A stretch of 34,475 nt of DNA from Myxococcales bacterium. GTDB taxonomy: Bacteria > Myxococcota > B64-G9. The number at the start of each line of letters is the position of its first letter. Position 1 is the stretch's first letter. Both the position numbers and the translations under genes were made by a program. Below, piece after piece: positions 2,464 through 34,356 of this stretch. The stretch spans positions 1 through 34,475 of the forward strand of contig JAAZNF010000024.1 of the NCBI GenBank assembly GCA_012798435.1. Reading direction: 5' to 3'. A model generated the notes under the pieces. It worked only from the letters and a program-made list of their open reading frames with translations. It did not search any database and was not told where the DNA came from.

Positions 2464-4134
2464 CTACCAGCAGTACCCCAGGTCCGGGTTGGTCGAGTCG
2501 TACAGGTCGCGACAGAAGTACATGAACGGGCACTCCGGATCGCCATCGTACGCGTCGCACGCTTGCGTGCAATAGTAATCCCCGAAGAAGTCCTGGAGGC
2601 AGATCGCCCCCACCACGCAGTCGCGCCCGTCGGAAAGGCCGCACTCCTGCCCGACCTGGATGTCGCCACCGTACTCGCAGTACCCCTCGGTGGCCGAGCC
2701 CATGGCGATGCATACCTCCTCGTTGCCGGGCTGGCAGAAGGGGTCCTGCGAGGGGTTGCAGGTGGCGTAGCAGTGGGAGGTGAAACCCTCGTAGCCGAGG
2801 CACACCAGGCCCGTCAGGCAGTCGCCATAGCTCTCGCCGCACGGCTCGCCGACGTCCTGGGTGGCGGTGTTGGGGACGCAGGCGCCGTCCTGGCAGACCT
2901 CGGCCGTGGCCGCGCAGTCGGTGCCATCCTGCCACACCGTGTCCACGCAGGTCTGGACGATGTTGCCGTTGCAGCGGCTCTGGCCGTTCGTGCAGGGCCG
3001 CTCCTGGCACGCGCCACTCACGCAGGTCTTCCCGGAAGCGGCGCAGTTGGTGCCGTTCACCCAGGCGCCGCTCTGGCAGGTCTGCACGACATCGCCGCTG
3101 CAACGGGTCTCGCCGGCCTGGCAGGCCGGGGCCTGACAAGCCCCATTCAAGCACACCTGGCCCGTGGCGGCGCAGTTGGTGCCGTCCACCCAGGCGCCGC
3201 TCTGGCAGGTCTGCACCACGTTGCCGCTGCAGCGGGTCTGACCGCTGGTGCAGCTCGCGGCCTGGCAGGCCCCGTTCAGGCACACCTGGCCCGTGGCGGC
3301 GCAGTTGGTGCCGTTCACCCAGACACCGTTCTGGCAGGTCTGCACCACGTTGCCGCTGCACTGGGTCTGGCCATTGGTGCAGGTCGTGGCCTGGCAGGTG
3401 CCGTTCACGCAGCGGTTGCCGGCCATGCAGTCGGCGTCGGTGACGCAACCTCCGGTCTGGCAGGTGCCGCCGATGCAGCGCTGGCCCGCCTGGCAGTCGG
3501 CGTCCGAGACGCAGCCGGCTGCCTGGCACTGGCCGTTCTGGCAGACCTTGCCTTGGAGCGCGCAGTCGATGCCGTCCTGCCAGACGCCGCTCACGCAGGT
3601 CTGGATCACCGTGCCCAGGCACTGGACGTTGCCATTCACGCACCCCGGCACCTGGCACTCGCCATTCAGGCACTGCTGGCCCGCGGGGCAGTCGATGTCC
3701 GACACGCAGCCCTTGAGGACGCACACCCCGGCCAGGCACTTCTTCCCGGCCGGGCAATCGGCGTCCTGGGTGCAGCCTGTCGCCTCGCACTGGTGGGTGA
3801 TGGCGTTGCAGGTTGAGCCACCGGCGCACTCGTTGCTGTTGCGGCAACCGGGGAGGCAGTGCCCGCCGCTACACCAGGTCCCCGCGGGGCAACCGGCGTC
3901 GTTCTGGCAGGGGGCCTGGCACACTCCGCTGTTGCACACCTGACCATAGAGACAATCGCTGTCCTTTGCGCAGAAGTTGTTGTGGCTCGGGACGCAGCTC
4001 CCCCCGTTGCAGGTTTCGTTCGCCGGGCAGTCGTTGTCGGTTTTACACCCGCCCACCGGTTCCGAGCCGCAGCCGAAGATCCCGAACAGCGCGGCTCCCA
4101 ACAGCACCAGCACAACAACTGCAACTGACTTCAT
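2464..4134 (-). CDS. Cysteine-rich repeat lipoprotein
   Basis: Putative exported lipoprotein of 556 aa. The signal peptide ends in a lipobox-like IFGC (Cys22). The N-terminal third carries short CxxDxDCPAGxxCxxGxC units, similar to the Dickkopf/EGF-like modules seen in many myxobacterial surface proteins. Then come one diverged and four tandem 43-residue modules of the form C-x-x-G-x-x-x-C-x-G-x-x-x-Q-T-C...C...VC.x.G.AC. A different Cys-rich C-terminal domain follows (about 425-556). The many paired cysteines imply disulfide-stabilised folding outside the cytoplasm. The ATG is preceded by GGAGGTG at ideal spacing. It lies 24 bp after the upstream lipoprotein gene and 36 bp before the kinase gene, so one transcript is likely. 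Its molecular role is not known; adhesion or ligand binding is only a guess. Confidence 0.88.
   Translation of the reverse strand: MKSVAVVVLVLLGAALFGIFGCGSEPVGGCKTDNDCPANETCNGGSCVPSHNNFCAKDSDCLYGQVCNSGVCQAPCQNDAGCPAGTWCSGGHCLPGCRNSNECAGGSTCNAITHQCEATGCTQDADCPAGKKCLAGVCVLKGCVSDIDCPAGQQCLNGECQVPGCVNGNVQCLGTVIQTCVSGVWQDGIDCALQGKVCQNGQCQAAGCVSDADCQAGQRCIGGTCQTGGCVTDADCMAGNRCVNGTCQATTCTNGQTQCSGNVVQTCQNGVWVNGTNCAATGQVCLNGACQAASCTSGQTRCSGNVVQTCQSGAWVDGTNCAATGQVCLNGACQAPACQAGETRCSGDVVQTCQSGAWVNGTNCAASGKTCVSGACQERPCTNGQSRCNGNIVQTCVDTVWQDGTDCAATAEVCQDGACVPNTATQDVGEPCGESYGDCLTGLVCLGYEGFTSHCYATCNPSQDPFCQPGNEEVCIAMGSATEGYCEYGGDIQVGQECGLSDGRDCVVGAICLQDFFGDYYCTQACDAYDGDPECPFMYFCRDLYDSTNPDLGYCW
2866..3381 (-). 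repeat. Four tandem 129-bp coding repeats
   Basis: Four units of exactly 129 bp (43 codons) begin at 3381, 3252, 3123 and 2994 on the minus strand, each starting with a TGC Cys codon. They encode the Cys-rich modules of the lipoprotein. Units one and two are nearly identical and the later ones are diverged, which suggests recent duplication or gene conversion at one end of the array. An older related unit lies nearer the N-terminus (around 3530-3650). Confidence 0.9.
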
Positions 4135-14394: not shown

Positions 14395-16611
14395 ATGACC
14401 GAGCCCTCCCTGCCCCACCTGTTGCAGGTCGCGGTCGCGGCGCCGCTCCACTCGCTCTTCACCTACCGCGCGCCCGAGAAGGACGACGGCCTCGGCCCCG
14501 GACACCTGGTCGAGGTCCCGTTCGGGCGCGGGCGACGGCGCGGGGTGGTGGTGGCGGAGGCCGAGGCAGCGCCACCGGGCGTGGAGATCAAGGCCATCCT
14601 GCGCCGGGTCGAGCCGGAGCCGATGCTGTCGCCGGCGCTGCTGCGCCTGCTGCGCTTCGCCTGGGAGTACACCCTGTCGCCGCCGGGAGAGATGGTGTTC
14701 GCCGCCCTGCCGCCGGCCTTCCACCGGACCGGAAACCTCTCGCCGGAGAAGCGCGTTCGCCTGGTCGCGACGACAAGCGCGGGATGCGCTGCGGACGCGG
14801 AGACGCTACCCGAGCGCCAGCGCGAGATCTTGCTCGGCCTGCGTCGCGCCGGCGAGGTGCCGCTGACCCGCCTGTGTCGCGGGAAACCCTCGGCGCGCGC
14901 GGCCGTGCTGGCGCTGAAAAAGAAGGGACTGGTGAGCTTTCGGGAGCTTCTGGAAGAGCGGCGCCCCCGCGCCGCCGACCTGCCGGTCTCGCAGCCGCCA
15001 ACCCCGACGCCGGAACAACAAGCGGCCCTGGCCGCGTTGAGCGCGGCGCTGCAAAGTGAAGGCAACGAGAGCTTCCTCCTCTTTGGCGTGACCGGCAGCG
15101 GAAAGACCGAGGTGTACCTTAGGGCCATCGGCGAGACGCTCTCGCGGGGGCGCGGCGCCTTGCTGCTGGTCCCGGAGATCGCGCTCACCCCCCAGCTCAT
15201 CGCCCGCGTGACCGCCCGCTTCGGGGAGCAGGTGGCGGTGTTGCACTCGGGGCTGAGCGAAGGCGAGCGCCTGGACGAGTGGCGAAGACTGCAAGGCGGC
15301 CGGGCCCGGGTGGCGGTGGGGGCTCGCTCGGCGGTCTTCGCGCCGGTTCGGGACCTCGGGCTCATCGTGGTCGACGAGGAGCACGACCCCTCCTACAAGC
15401 AGTCGGAGCGGCTTCCCTACCACGCCCGGGACCTGGCCCTGGTGCGCGGCCGCGAGGAGAAGGCGGTGGTGGTGCTGGGTTCGGCCACACCCTCGGCGGA
15501 GAGCCTGCACCGGGTGGGCGCCGGGCGCATGCGGCAGCTCTTCCTGTCCAAGCGCATCCAGCGGCGGGCGCTGCCCGCCCTCGAAGTCGTCGACCTCAAG
15601 CGTGAGCTGCTCGACCCGCTGGAGCGCCCGCACGTGCTGGGCCCCCGCCTCGCCCAGGCGTTGGCAGAGACGCTGGACCGCGGCGAGCAGGCCATCTTGT
15701 TTCTCAACCGTCGGGGATATTCCTCGGTGGCGCTGTGCCAGGACTGCGGCCAGGGGGTGCGTTGCCAGAACTGCAGCGTCTCGCTCACCCACCATCTGAA
15801 AGAGGATCAGCTGCGCTGCCACTACTGCGGCCTGGCCATGCCGCTCCCGCGCGCCTGCCCCGCCTGCGGCGGCGGCCGTATCGCCTTGTTCGGACTGGGC
15901 ACCGAGAAGTGCGAGGAGGAGGTGCGCCGGCGTTTCCCCGGCGCACGCATCGCCCGCCTGGACAGCGACACCACTTCGGGCCGCGGCGTGCTGCTCCGCA
16001 CGCTGGAGCGCTTTACCGCCGGCGACCTGGACGTGCTCATCGGGACCCAGATGGTCACCAAGGGCCACGACATCCCGAACGTGACCCTGGTCGGGGTGCT
16101 GCTGGCGGACCTCGGTCTGCAGGTGCCGGATTTCCGCGCCGCGGAGCGGACCTTCCAGCTGCTGGTCCAGGTGGCCGGGCGGGCCGGGCGCGGGTCGCGG
16201 CCGGGGACGGTGATCGTGCAGACCTTCCTGCCGCTGCACCCGGCCATCCAGGCGGCCCGAGAAGACGAGGTGCTGTCTTTCATGCAGCGGGAGATCGAAC
16301 GCCGCCAGCAACTCGGGTACCCTCCCGCACGGCGCCTATTGCTGGTGCGCGCGGAGCACGAGCGGCAAGAGCTGGCCGCGGAGGCGGCGCGGCAGGTGGC
16401 CGCGGCTTTCCGCCGACTGGACCCGGAGCAGCTCTCCGTGCTGGGGCCCTCGCCGTCGCCGATCGAACGCCTACGGGGCCTGTACCGCTTCCAGCTCCTG
16501 GTAAAGAGCCGTTCGATCGCCCGCCTGCTGCAGGCGGCGCGCCGGGTCCGCGAGCGGGTGCAGACGCGGGCACGCCTAAATTTTGATGTCGATCCGTTCG
16601 ACATGTTATGA
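14395..16611 (+). CDS. priA: Primosomal replication-restart helicase PriA
   Basis: 738 aa, normal length. A 3'-5' helicase that recognises stalled forks and reloads the replisome. Seen in order: N-terminal 3'-binding domain with YxxP-like SLFTYRAP, Walker A GVTGSGKT (about residue 230), DEEH box (about 327), a zinc-binding insertion with four CxxC pairs (CQDC, CQNC, CHYC, CPAC; about 448-492), helicase motifs [10 protein letters not shown] and QVAGRAGRG, and the C-terminal domain. ATG 14395 was chosen because the PriA family begins here; GGAGG stands about 12 nt upstream. Its stop overlaps the start of the next gene (ATGA), implying translational coupling. Confidence 0.96.
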
Positions 16612-19600
16612 TTCGCCATCCCATGGCCCGCATCCTGATCTTCGAAGCCCAGAGCGACCTGGCCGCGCAGCTCGGCGAGGCCATCCAGCGCGCCGGCATG
16701 CCGGTGGAACGCGTGGCCTCCGGTACTCCTGAGGTCATCGCCTCCATCGGCCACAAGCCACCCGCGCTCATCGTCCTCGACCTGCGCATCGACGGTGGCC
16801 GCGGCGTCGAGCTGTGCCACACCATCCGCGAGTCGCCGGGTGGCGACCTGGTGCCGATCCTGCTCCTGGGGACGGGCGCCGAAGGCGTGGCCAACTTCGG
16901 CGACGCGCTGGCCGAGGGCGGCGACTACTACTTTTCCTTGCCGCTCGATCTGGAAAAGCTGGTGTCCAAGATCTTGACCTACGTGGGTGTGCAGCGCGAC
17001 GAGGCGACCCAGATCGGCACGCCCCCCCCCGAGGCCACCCGTCTGCCCGCCTCCGACGAACTGACCCGGCGGGTAGACTTGATCTTGGGTTTCCAAGGCG
17101 CGCCGCAGGGTGCGGCCAAATTGGCTCCGCCCCGCGACGATCGTCCGGAGGACGCGGAGCGCCTGTCGGCGCTCGAGCGCCAGCTCTTCGACGATGGCGT
17201 GACCGAGCCGGCGGGATCGGCACCGCCGCTCGACATCGCCGAGCGGCCCACGCTGCAAATGCCGGCCATCGATCTCTCATCGATCCCGCCGGCGAAGGAC
17301 GAGGGCGCCATTCTCCAGCCGCCCAAGTCGTCCCCTCCCCCGGAGCCGCCTCTCGAAGTGCCGCCCGTAGAGCCCGACAGGCCCAAGGATACGCTCCAGG
17401 CCATCGATGACCGATTGGAAGAGATTCTCGAAGACCAGGAAGAAGGGGGAGACGCGGAAGCGCCCGACATCGCCCTGAAGCTCTTGCGCGAAGTCGAGGA
17501 GCGCAACCGAGCTTACGCCCGAGAGAAGGCCCTGGCGGAGGCGGGTCTCGCACCTCCAAGAGACGACCTGACCGATTCGGCAGCGAGCGAAGAGGAGTCG
17601 CCGCAAGAGGAGCAAGAGAAGGCTCCTTCGATGGACGGCTCGGTCGAGACACCGGAAGACCCGGTGGAAGACGCACTGGAGGAAGAAGACCGCAAGATAA
17701 GGGAGTTTGAAGAGAAGCTCCTTCAAGAAGCGGCAGAAAGAGAGCGGCGCGAAGCCGAGGAGAAAGCGAAGCGCGAGGCCGAGGAGAGGGCGAAGCGCGA
17801 GGCCGAGGAGAGGGCGAAGCTCGAGGCCGAGGAGAAAGCGAAGCGCGAGGCCGTGGAGAAGGCGAAGCGCGAGGCCGAGGAGAAGGCACGCCGCGAGGCC
17901 GAGGAGAAGGCACGCCGCGAGGCCGAGGAGAAAGCGAAGCGCGAGGCCGAGGAGAAAGCACGCGCGGAGGCCAAGAAGAAGGCGATCGAAGAGTTCAAGG
18001 AGAGAGTCCGCAGGGAGGCAGAGGAGAAGGCGTATCGCAAGATCCACAAGAAGGAAGAGAAGCCTCCGGCCAAGGACAAGGAAGCAACCCCGCAACTACC
18101 CGGGCAACCTGCGGCCCCGACTCCTCCCGGCGACGCGTCCGCGCCGACGGCCAGGGCGACGTCCGGTGACGAGGGTGAGGAGCTCTCGGCGAGCGAGTTC
18201 TGGGACAGCGAGGCCCCGGACATCGGAGGCGCCGGCGACGCCCAAGAAGAACGACACCTGGCCGATCTGGCCTCCGAGTGGATGGCGGAGGGCGCCTCGG
18301 GCGGCTCCGAGGCGGACGCGGTGGGGCCCGAGACCTCGGTGAGCTCCGATCGTCTGGTCAAGCTGCTCGAGGAGGAAGCCCGCCTGGCGCGCGAGAAGGC
18401 CGCCGTGGAACCCGAAGCGGAGGACGAGGGCGTCATCACCGTGCCGGATCTCCCTCCCTACCCGGGCGCGAAGGAGCGCCGGGTGGTGGTTCCGCTGCAT
18501 GGCTCCGGCCGGTTGGAATCGGCCCGAGGCGAGCCGACCCCGACCGTCCGAACGGAGACGACCGCGCCGCCGCCAGACGAACCCGCCGCCGAGCAACCGT
18601 TGCAGGTCGCCCCGCGGGCCAGGGGTGCCGCCTGGGTGTCATTCCTGCGCGAGGGAGGCCCCGAAGCCGACGAGGCGTTCCGACCCCGGCCCCCGCCCGC
18701 GTACCGACCACTCGATCCCCTGGAATGCGGTCTGGCCGAGGAGAGCGTGCCGACCGTTTTCTGGCGCGCGCACGTGCAGCAGGTGACCGGCCGGTTGCTC
18801 TTCGTCTCGGGCCAGGAGGAGAAGGAGGTCTTCTTCGAGGAGGGAGTGCCGATCGCCGCGCGCTCCAACCTGGCGGCGGATCGGCTGGAGGAGATGCTGC
18901 TGCGCTTCGGCCTCCTCGATCGCGCCTCGTACGCGCAGGCCCGGGTCAAAGGGTTCGAGCATCCCCGGGCGCTGGCCGCGCATCTCGTCGAGCGCGGCCT
19001 GCTGCGAGCGGAGGAGTTCTTCCCCGTGGTGCGGCGCCACCTGGAGGAGGTGCTGCTCTCGCTGTTCGAGTGGTCCGAAGGCGCGGCGCGATTCGACGAC
19101 CAGCTCGTGCCGGATCCGGAGAAGGTCCGGCTTGCCCGGCCCGTGGCCGCCCTGATCATGGAGGGTATCCGGCGCAAGTACCTGCTGCCGCGGCTGGTGC
19201 AGACCGTGGGCGGCCCTTCCAGCCTGCTGGCCCCGATCCCGCCCGAGCAGCGCGGCCCGGGCTCGCCCGATCCGGCGTCGCTCATGCTCAACGCCGGCGA
19301 GCGAGAGGTGCTGCGCCGGGTGGACGGGCTGCGGCCCATCGAGGAGATCGTGTTCTTGTCGGGGCGCGAGGCGCTCGAGGTGTACCGGGTGCTCTTCGCC
19401 GGCGTGGTGACGGGCCTCTTGGTCGTGACGGCCCCGGGATTGCGCGATGGAGCGCAAGCCGATCCGCGGGCCGAGCAACGCGATCTGGAGATCGGCCGCC
19501 GCCGGGTGGAGGCCAAGTTCGAGGAGCTCGACCGGGTGAGCTACTTCGAGGTGCTGGGTGTCTCCTCCCGCGCCACGCCCTACGAGATCGAGGAGGCCTT

Positions 19601-19760
19601 CCGCAGGCTCCAGCGCGAGTTCCACCCCATGCGTTTCACCCACCCCGCCTACCAGGCGCTCCAGGGAAAGCTCGACGCCATCCGGCGCGCGGTGGAGGAA
19701 GCCTTCGAGGTGCTATCCGACGAGGTGCTGCGCGAGGAGTACCGCAAGTCCTCCCAGTGA
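16608..19760 (+). CDS. Receiver / charged helix / DUF4388-like / J-like multidomain protein
   Basis: 1050 aa, no enzymatic signature. N-terminal receiver-like domain (about 7-125) keeps the phospho-acceptor Asp58 (VLDLR) and Thr89, but the conserved Lys-Pro is Leu-Pro (101-102) and the acidic pair is incomplete, so phosphorylation is uncertain. A low-complexity acidic/Pro region follows. Then comes a long charged helix (about 370-490) made of eight-residue KAKREAEE units, an acidic linker, and a DUF4388-like segment (about 705-870; [22 protein letters not shown]) of the sort found in myxobacterial gliding and regulatory proteins. It ends in a J-domain-like segment (about 975-1046; [17 protein letters not shown]) whose HPD is HPM, so Hsp70 stimulation is unlikely. 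The start ATG overlaps the priA stop and no separate ribosome site is seen; ATG 16623 is an alternative. Probably a scaffold or regulator. Confidence 0.85.
17763..17978 (+). repeat. Nine 24-bp coding repeats (charged octads)
   Basis: Nine in-phase 24-bp units encode variants of KAKREAEE ([24 protein letters not shown]), the last one decayed to KARAEAKK. An eight-residue period with alternating acidic and basic residues suits a single stable alpha-helix better than a heptad coiled coil. Near-identical units suggest unit number may vary between strains. Confidence 0.85.
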
Positions 19761-19784
19761 ATTACGATCCGCGTTCCCAACGGC

Positions 19785-19914
19785 GCGCCTCCGGCCACTC
19801 GTTCGCGGCGCGCCAAGCGAGTCCTCTATGTAGCGGAGCCGGCTCTGCGGCGAGCAACTAAGAGGACTCGCCGGTAGGCAGCCGCGCCTCCGGCCACTCG
19901 TTCGCGGCGCGCCA
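19785..19914. repeat. Palindromic intergenic repeat, copy 1
   Basis: A composite unit. A 31-nt box (19785-19815, beginning GCGCCTCCGGCCACTCGTTC and ending GCGCGCCA) is followed by a perfect 11-bp inverted repeat GCGAGTCCTCT / AGAGGACTCGC (19817-19827 and 19861-19871), whose loop contains the palindrome GAGCCGGCTC (19836-19845). A second 31-nt box follows at 19884-19914. The boxes are 99 bp apart. The box can itself fold (GCGCC/GGCGC). Copy 2 lies 288 bp downstream. No transposase is nearby. Confidence 0.9.
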
Positions 19915-20072
19915 GGTTGGTATTTTCGCCGCACCAAGTGTTCACGATGCGGCCTGTTTAACGCCGACCACCCCCGGCGCTGCTCGGGAGGTCCCTGCGC
20001 GGCGGCGGGGGGCCCCCGGTCGGCTACGCGGCCGCCACGATGCATCCAAGGCGGCGACGTCGATGAACAGCC
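19915..20072. other. Spacer between the two palindromic repeat copies
   Basis: 158 bp with no supported gene. It contains its own inverted repeat, GCCGACC (19963-19969) and GGTCGGC (20018-20024), enclosing a very GC-rich arm with C5/G6 runs, plus a short CCGCA/TGCGG repeat (19929-19952). Small open frames on the minus strand across this area read through the repeats and are not credible genes. Confidence 0.6.
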
Positions 20073-20199
20073 GCGCCTCCGGCCATCTGTTCGCAGCGCG
20101 CCAGGCGAGTCCTCTATGTAGCGGAGCCGGCTCTGCGGCGAGCAACTAAGAGGACCCGCCGGCAGGCAGCCGCGCCTCCGGCCACTCGTCCGCGGCGGG
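20073..20199. repeat. Palindromic intergenic repeat, copy 2
   Basis: Same architecture as copy 1: 31-nt box at 20073-20103, inverted repeat GGCGAGTCCTCT / AGAGGACCCGCC (20104-20115 and 20149-20160, one mismatch), the same inner palindrome, and a box at 20172-20199 that is degraded at its end. Box spacing is again 99 bp. The ~45-bp hairpin core is nearly identical between copies while the flanking boxes carry substitutions. Confidence 0.9.
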
Positions 20200-20207
20200 A
20201 GTTTGCC

Positions 20208-20236
20208 TTGTCAGCCGAAGCCAGCATTGCTAGATT
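20208..20236 (+). promoter_or_regulatory. Promoter of def-fmt
   Basis: TTGTCA (20208-20213), a 17-bp spacer and TAGATT (20231-20236), 26 bp before the def start. The -35 begins just after the last repeat box, so the repeat element ends where the promoter starts. Confidence 0.5.
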
Positions 20237-20262: not shown

Positions 20263-20775
20263 ATGACCACACGTGCGTTGCGGATATTTCCCGACCCGGT
20301 GCTGCGCGAGCGTTGCCGCGAGATCGATTGTTTCGATGAGAACCTGTCGCGGCTGGTCGATGACCTGGCCGAGAGCATGTACGCCCATCGCGGCGTCGGC
20401 CTGGCCGCCCCCCAGATCGGCGAGTCGCTGCGGGTCATGGTGGTGGACGTGGATCAGCGGGAGGGTGCGCCGCGCCTGCTCGAATTTGTGAACCCCCGAA
20501 TATCCGCCGCGGACGAGGAGCTCGAGGAACGCGAGGAGGGGTGCCTTTCCTTTCCCGGCGAGGCAGAGATGGTGCGCCGGCCCCGGCGGGTCACCGTGCA
20601 GGCCCTGGACCGACGCGGGCAGCCGTTCGAGATCACGGCCGAGGGGCTGCTGGCGACCGCCATGCAGCACGAGATCGATCACCTGGACGGGAAGCTGTTC
20701 ATCGACTACCTGTCACGGCTTCGGCGATCATTGGTTACGCGGCGGATGAAGAAACGCTCCAGGGAGGGCGAGTGA
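20263..20775 (+). CDS. def: Peptide deformylase
   Basis: 170 aa metallo-hydrolase that removes the formyl group from the N-terminal formyl-Met of new proteins. All three motifs are intact: GVGLAAPQ (44-51), EGCLSFP (92-98, metal ligand Cys94) and QHEIDHLDG (135-143, ligands His136 and His140, catalytic Glu137). Start ATG 20263 has AGGAA 4-5 nt upstream. The gene overlaps fmt by GTGA, the standard def-fmt pair. Confidence 0.96.
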   Translation: MTTRALRIFPDPVLRERCREIDCFDENLSRLVDDLAESMYAHRGVGLAAPQIGESLRVMVVDVDQREGAPRLLEFVNPRISAADEELEEREEGCLSFPGEAEMVRRPRRVTVQALDRRGQPFEITAEGLLATAMQHEIDHLDGKLFIDYLSRLRRSLVTRRMKKRSREGE

Positions 20776-34316: not shown

Positions 34317-34356
34317 CCCCCCCGAATCCCGAATCCGGTTCCACCCACCCCGGTTT
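34317..34356 (+). repeat. C-rich 3'-end element, copy 2 (after methyltransferase stop)
   Basis: Seven C, two GAATCC blocks, then GGTTCCACCCACCCCGGTT. It begins 20 nt after the methyltransferase stop. It is the inverted counterpart of 121-162, so both copies are in sense orientation after unrelated genes. Confidence 0.75.

Follow-up and report, generated by a model that had tools for sequence, protein, structure and literature searches.

What lies in the spacer upstream of def, and whether it is a chance duplication or a member of some wider class of DNA, is the question raised by this locus. The window, meaning the whole stretch of 34,475 nucleotides that was analysed, is one entire contig (C68) of a 129-contig, 5.05 Mb draft genome of a Myxococcales bacterium. 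The spacer, which separates a stop codon (last base 19760) from the ATG of def (peptide deformylase) at 20263, is 502 bp long, the length that an initial sequence-only reading had assigned to it in describing a two-copy composite palindromic element. Upstream of it lies a response-regulator/DnaJ-domain gene (16608-19760), in which a response-regulator receiver domain is joined to a charged stretch built from 24-bp tandem repeats and to a C-terminal J-domain. Combining searches of this genome with covariance models and comparisons across the phylum, the present analysis interprets the array as a probable mosaic in which two units of a hairpin mobile repeat, each consisting of a core (A) and its boxes, enclose one inverted copy of a sister module (B). 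Most likely, it is tolerated selfish DNA upstream of a predicted def promoter and not a regulator of def.

Layout of the array beside def

The array reads box-A-box-B (inverted)-box-A-box, with the following features.

19785-19815, plus strand: box 1, a loop of 14-16 nt between inverted-repeat arms, present in other copies too
19804-19888, plus strand: core A, copy 1, an 85-nt hairpin unit whose ends overlap boxes 1 and 2
19884-19914, plus strand: box 2
19946-20038, minus strand: module B, a hairpin unit with the architecture of core A, inverted
20073-20103, plus strand: box 3
20092-20176, plus strand: core A, copy 2
20172-20199, plus strand: box 4, with a degenerate 3' end
20208-20236, plus strand: promoter-like site TTGTCA-17-TAGATT, a consensus match only (shuffles average 0.0)

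The sequence-only reading had recognized a 31-nt box with a second box 99 bp on, a palindrome with an inner GCGGAGCCGGCTCTGC and the recurrence of the whole set at 288 bp, all of which are borne out in the window, where the palindrome arms lie at 19817-19834 and 19854-19871. The recurrence takes the form of a direct repeat of 126 nt (19784-19909 and 20072-20197) with 94% identity, and a spacing of 288/289 bp between two A copies is also seen on contigs C49 and C101. What had been missed is the third, inverted hairpin, module B, inside the 288 bp. The promoter-like site begins 9 bp past box 4, just downstream of the array, and is a predicted promoter, presumably for def; some other array copies likewise end just 5' of promoter-like sequences. 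Folded as RNA, the 502-bp spacer is more stable than its shuffles (z = -2.2). A single 131-nt unit folded as DNA has an energy no different from shuffles (z = -0.6), and therefore the case made here is not built on folding energy.

Other repeats were also observed in the window. Close to its two ends, at 122-160 and 34317-34355, the contig carries the arms of a 39-nt inverted repeat (82%), which suggests that another dispersed repeat is what broke the assembly. Positions 2879-3714 hold repeats of 129 nt in tandem (65-74% alike) along with repeats of 66 nt, and may belong to a gene for a cysteine-rich repeat protein.

Copies in the genome and a MITE that carries core A

A BLAST search with 19785-19915 found 53 matching places in the genome, and the part common to most of them is the 85 nt of core A. 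When a covariance model was built from 30 distinct copies, it returned 55 places at E <= 1, of which about 50 were taken as real, three of the weakest being the antisense of known copies. Members missed by the sequence search and added by the model include C32:38596 (E 7e-12), C66:65034 (1e-11), C31:2513 (2e-10) and C48:43563 (3e-6). Given some 50 genomic places and a best covariance-model E of ~1e-19, core A is not a product of chance. The stretch between the two A copies of the window is itself repeated (28 BLAST matches, some of them fragments), and module B has at least 11 copies in this genome. The label 'two-copy' is thus replaced by a family of about 50 members. The fallback offered with it, a local duplication without wider meaning, would suit two near-identical copies in one spacer; it is refuted by the ~50 genomic copies together with relatives in four other genera, and its probability is negligible.

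Core A also sits in the middle of 168-186 bp elements of this genome that have the ends CTGACCGNACCTCA. Among 14 paired-end miniature elements of the MITE type (L034, L036-L043, L045, L049, L061, L065 and L069), core A is at the same place in 12, and it is absent from a 96-bp and a 299-bp element. Target duplications of 9 bp accompany 12 of the 14, with 6-9 of the 9 positions identical as against a shuffled mean of 2.5. The motif TTGAC occurs within 40 nt of 10 of the 28 MITE ends, compared with a background of 2%, eight of these motifs starting exactly 12 nt from the element, and TTG or more starts 12 nt outside, on one side, in 13 of the 14. The MITE with these ends is therefore a promoter-targeted insertion. 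ISLre2, TnGBS and some ISKra4 elements are reported to insert at a fixed distance upstream of sigma-A promoters (PMC3942029). Like the MITEs of promoter-targeting Mutator-like elements, those that hold this subset of A copies end in terminal inverted repeats, duplicate 9 bp and lie at a set distance from a -35-like hexamer, although that distance is 12 nt here rather than 15-17, and the window copies and module B are no such elements. No ISKra4 transposase was found in this draft genome. An IS256-type transposase, of which the genome has one gene, was considered as mobiliser of the MITE and rejected because the ends do not match. In the same genome, L093, L104 and L108 are mosaics in which parts of the MITE are joined to module B and to other repeats, the latter having ends similar to TTGACCGTATCTCG, with some of the fusions lying at a common string, GGGTCCTCC.

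The 12 MITEs that hold core A at one place, most of them with 9-bp target duplications, raise the prospect that core A is simply the middle of an element mobilised by a DDE transposase and that the window copies are decayed remnants of this promoter-targeting MITE. We regard this as quite improbable, since box flanks and no MITE ends are found in the window copies, in module B and in the copies read in other genera (G002, G005 and G008), and neither terminal inverted repeats nor a target-site duplication were found around the window unit. The MITE accounts for a subset of A copies only.

A shared fold in sibling genera, in tandem units and in protein genes

Core A and module B share one plan, namely, outer arms, GCGYA, a variable inner stem, GC-GNA-apical hairpin-GA-GC, the inner stem again, GTTAARCA and the outer arms. 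Core A reads CGCGGC-GCGCMA-stem-GC-GGA-GCCG..CGGC-GA-GC-stem-GTYAAGCA-GCCGCG, and module B, on the minus strand, has arms GCGGCC/GGCCGC, loop GCGTA, inner stem, GC-GCA-GGG..CCC-GA-GC, inner stem and loop GTTAAACA. The letters common to the two lie in internal loops, whereas the helices differ, and the same plan is followed by the C48 copy, which is unlike the others in sequence, and by weak model matches in two sibling genomes.

Alignment of the copies revealed the compensatory stem changes that had been suggested as a check. For A, 7 of 26 pairs have changed on both sides, in 46 cells as compared with 15.2 +/- 4.0 when shuffled and at most 5 when slid; for B, aligned from three genera, the values are 10 of 28 pairs and 44 cells, vs 17.1 shuffled and at most 10 slid. 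The outer arms also compensate within G005 (GGCCC/GGGCC vs GGTCC/GGACC) and within G008 (CGCGGC/GCCGCG vs CGTGGC/GCCACG). Hence, the earlier description of a core that is unchanged while the boxes vary suits the two window copies but not the family, in which the stems change in a compensated manner and it is the internal-loop letters that are kept. Covariation alone is no proof of selection, as DNA palindromes can covary by self-templated repair, and unpaired letters conserved over unlike stems are the stronger argument.

Those letters were used as a pattern, GCGCA-N25-50-GAGCA-N14-22-GTTAARCA, on 195 genomes of the phylum. It matched 14 times in G002, nine times in G005, and twice each in G008 and the own genome; single matches in G004 and G022 have non-pairing flanks and were counted as chance. 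All of the true members have complementary arms of 5-9 bp, which the two chance matches lack, and a reversed control pattern gave no match in the family and at most one in any genome. Since G005 was not used in designing the pattern, its family of matches represents a confirmed prediction. The covariance model of module B, run on 117 genomes, gave 34 matches in G008, 13 in G005, 11 in the window's own genome, two in G004 and two weak ones in G002, and none in the remaining genomes. On the basis of the pattern and the B model together, the class is present in five genera of the GTDB family f1. Four further f1 genera gave no match and, by pattern and covariance model, nothing was found outside f1 except one chance pattern match. 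Sibling genera have the same fold with different stem sequences, in keeping with the initial description of the element as structured. A DNA search with the A sequence found no match in 57 other genomes of the family and phylum, because it is the fold, rather than the sequence, that is conserved in the relatives. No match came from viral contigs, plasmids or phages, and Rfam 15 gave none at gathering score, with only chance matches at a permissive threshold. The hairpin class is accordingly unmatched in the libraries searched (Rfam, GTDB r220 contigs, viral contigs, plasmids, phages). The sole core-pattern match among the GTDB r220 contigs, in a Prevotella genome, was set aside as chance because its flanks do not match.

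With fold and loop letters conserved, and with G-U in place of G-C at one pair in subfamilies, the units might be a dispersed structured RNA, i.e., hairpins that act in transcripts (through stability, RNase processing, or binding of a protein or ligand) and were multiplied for that use. This appears rather unlikely in view of the occurrence of both orientations within one array (B vs A), the lack of an Rfam match and the units inside coding genes of G002. The wobble pairs do not discriminate between RNA and DNA: G-U and A-C mismatches affect similar numbers of pair columns (5 vs 7 and 4 vs 4), and no preferred RNA strand is apparent.

Cores occur singly or head to tail, and adjacent cores share a box made up of an arm, a loop of ~12-16 nt and an arm. 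Tandem units measure 99 bp at C77 and C6 of the own genome and at C263 and C264 of G002, 98 bp at C15, 103 bp at C534 of G005 and 117-119 bp at C471 and C368 of G008; tandem units with shared boxes are seen in four genera. The boxes flanking one core are identical, though differing between loci, at L007, L021, the first unit of the window and L135 of G002; they differ at L010, L013 and L141. The pattern fits, without proving, duplication upon insertion followed by unequal recombination.

In G002, one and the same frame of the unit (APAAQAKLSGAASLPSSGGQRGVKQAG) passes through real genes. The selB gene of that genome (L123 and L137; contigs C8 and C181) is in two halves at two contig ends, with a unit at each broken end. 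By Pfam, one half has the GTP_EFTU and SelB domains and the other has SelB-wing_2 and wing_3. At least one hairpin unit interrupts the gene in-frame between winged-helix parts, where the contigs break. Seven selB orthologs in sibling genera cross the site without an insert and so provide the empty site. A TPR protein of G002 has two tandem units in-frame, and an N-acetyltransferase gene probably has one. At L147, L129 and L135 of G002, a second in-frame module (~50 aa, AGAAWLAARGRTPVLTSLRAGAHPLAARIMGN) comes after the hairpin unit, between the same boxes. The own genome offers no convincing in-frame case, its long spanning frames resembling the chance frames of a GC-rich genome.

Alternating arms, clustered arrays and a location between genes and near promoters are what a protein-binding or nucleoid array would also present. 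In the manner of gyrase-, IHF- or Pol I-binding BIMEs, such an array would be retained because it helps to organise the chromosome or affects supercoiling upstream of promoters. Yet the units are limited to some genera of one family, have undergone large sequence change and lie in tandem inside G002 genes, and we give this explanation little credence.

A probable mobile hairpin and its nearest counterparts

The class is probably, if by no means securely, a non-autonomous hairpin-forming mobile DNA repeat that works like REP/BIME and the Rickettsia palindromic elements (RPEs), although it is not counted as a member of either. Copy number, covariation, the loop-letter prediction, the tandems with shared boxes, and the selB insert with its empty site support a mobile repeat. 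Against it are the failure to find a mobilising enzyme (four Y1 loci without a core), flanking boxes that are not identical everywhere, and the ability of palindromes to covary without selection. Of the MITE- or REP-like element proposed at the outset, mobility is supported by genome-wide copies, covarying stems, flanking direct-repeat boxes and the site that is empty in sibling genera. True MITEs do contain some of the A copies, but MITE ends are absent from those of the window, and the class has neither a consistent REP tag nor a linked RAYT gene.

As a mobile repeat, the unit would spread as a folded single strand or cruciform seen by a recombinase acting in trans, with the conserved internal-loop letters as its likely recognition features. 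Each lineage would be free to change arms and stems, because these need only pair, and tandem arrays may lengthen or shorten through box-to-box recombination. A more specific version, offered tentatively, is a distinct class of mobile hairpin in which the trans-acting recombinase reads GCGYA/GTTAARCA plus GNA/GA in the folded strand, takes any pairing arms, integrates tandem units at the inverted-repeat box and enters protein genes in-frame; if true, protein-invading palindromes would exist outside Rickettsia as well, here with a mechanism of their own. We know of no settled mechanism for how short palindromic repeats such as RPEs move. One bacterial family here offers sibling genera with diverged hairpin families, an empty site, tandem units and in-frame insertions, and the mechanism becomes testable, as the conserved letters mark those features of the hairpin that any partner, such as a mobilising enzyme, would need to recognise.

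Among known systems, integron attC sites have consensus boxes RYYYAAC and GTTRRRY. They are likewise folded single-strand sites with variable arms and arrays, and GTTAARC fits GTTRRRY. In contrast to integrons, there are no gene cassettes between the units, and attC identity is ruled out by the missing RYYYAAC, the 5' side being GCGYA in the members listed.

REP/BIME sequences are described (PMC3733652; PMC2817692) as interspersed hairpins with mismatches or internal loops, forming clusters of alternating orientation and mosaics. The present class is similar in its interspersed hairpins with internal loops, alternating-orientation clusters and mosaics, but its units are 80-100 nt rather than 20-40 bp, and direct tandem units are prominent. 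Membership in REP/BIME fails on tag and transposase association. REP sequences bear an unpaired GTAG or CGTC tag at one end, whereas of 29 distinct members of the present class 9, most of them from G005, have GTAG nearby and 2 have CGTC, with no common tag. Association with RAYT (Y1 transposase) is reported for GTAG repeats only; Y1_Tnp genes are present in nine of nine family genomes, and no core was found beside the four Y1 loci examined, two of which are short or at contig ends.

RPEs are short hairpin-forming palindromic repeats of ~100-150 bp, with several families per genome, that are situated between genes as well as in-frame inside unrelated genes (PMC10969869, PMC3733652). The likeness to these published descriptions lies in short hairpin-forming palindromes between genes, in several families per genome and in the in-frame habit, seen in G002 but in no convincing case in the window genome. 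What sets the present class apart is its other bacterial group, its head-to-tail units with shared boxes, and its common loop letters over different stems.
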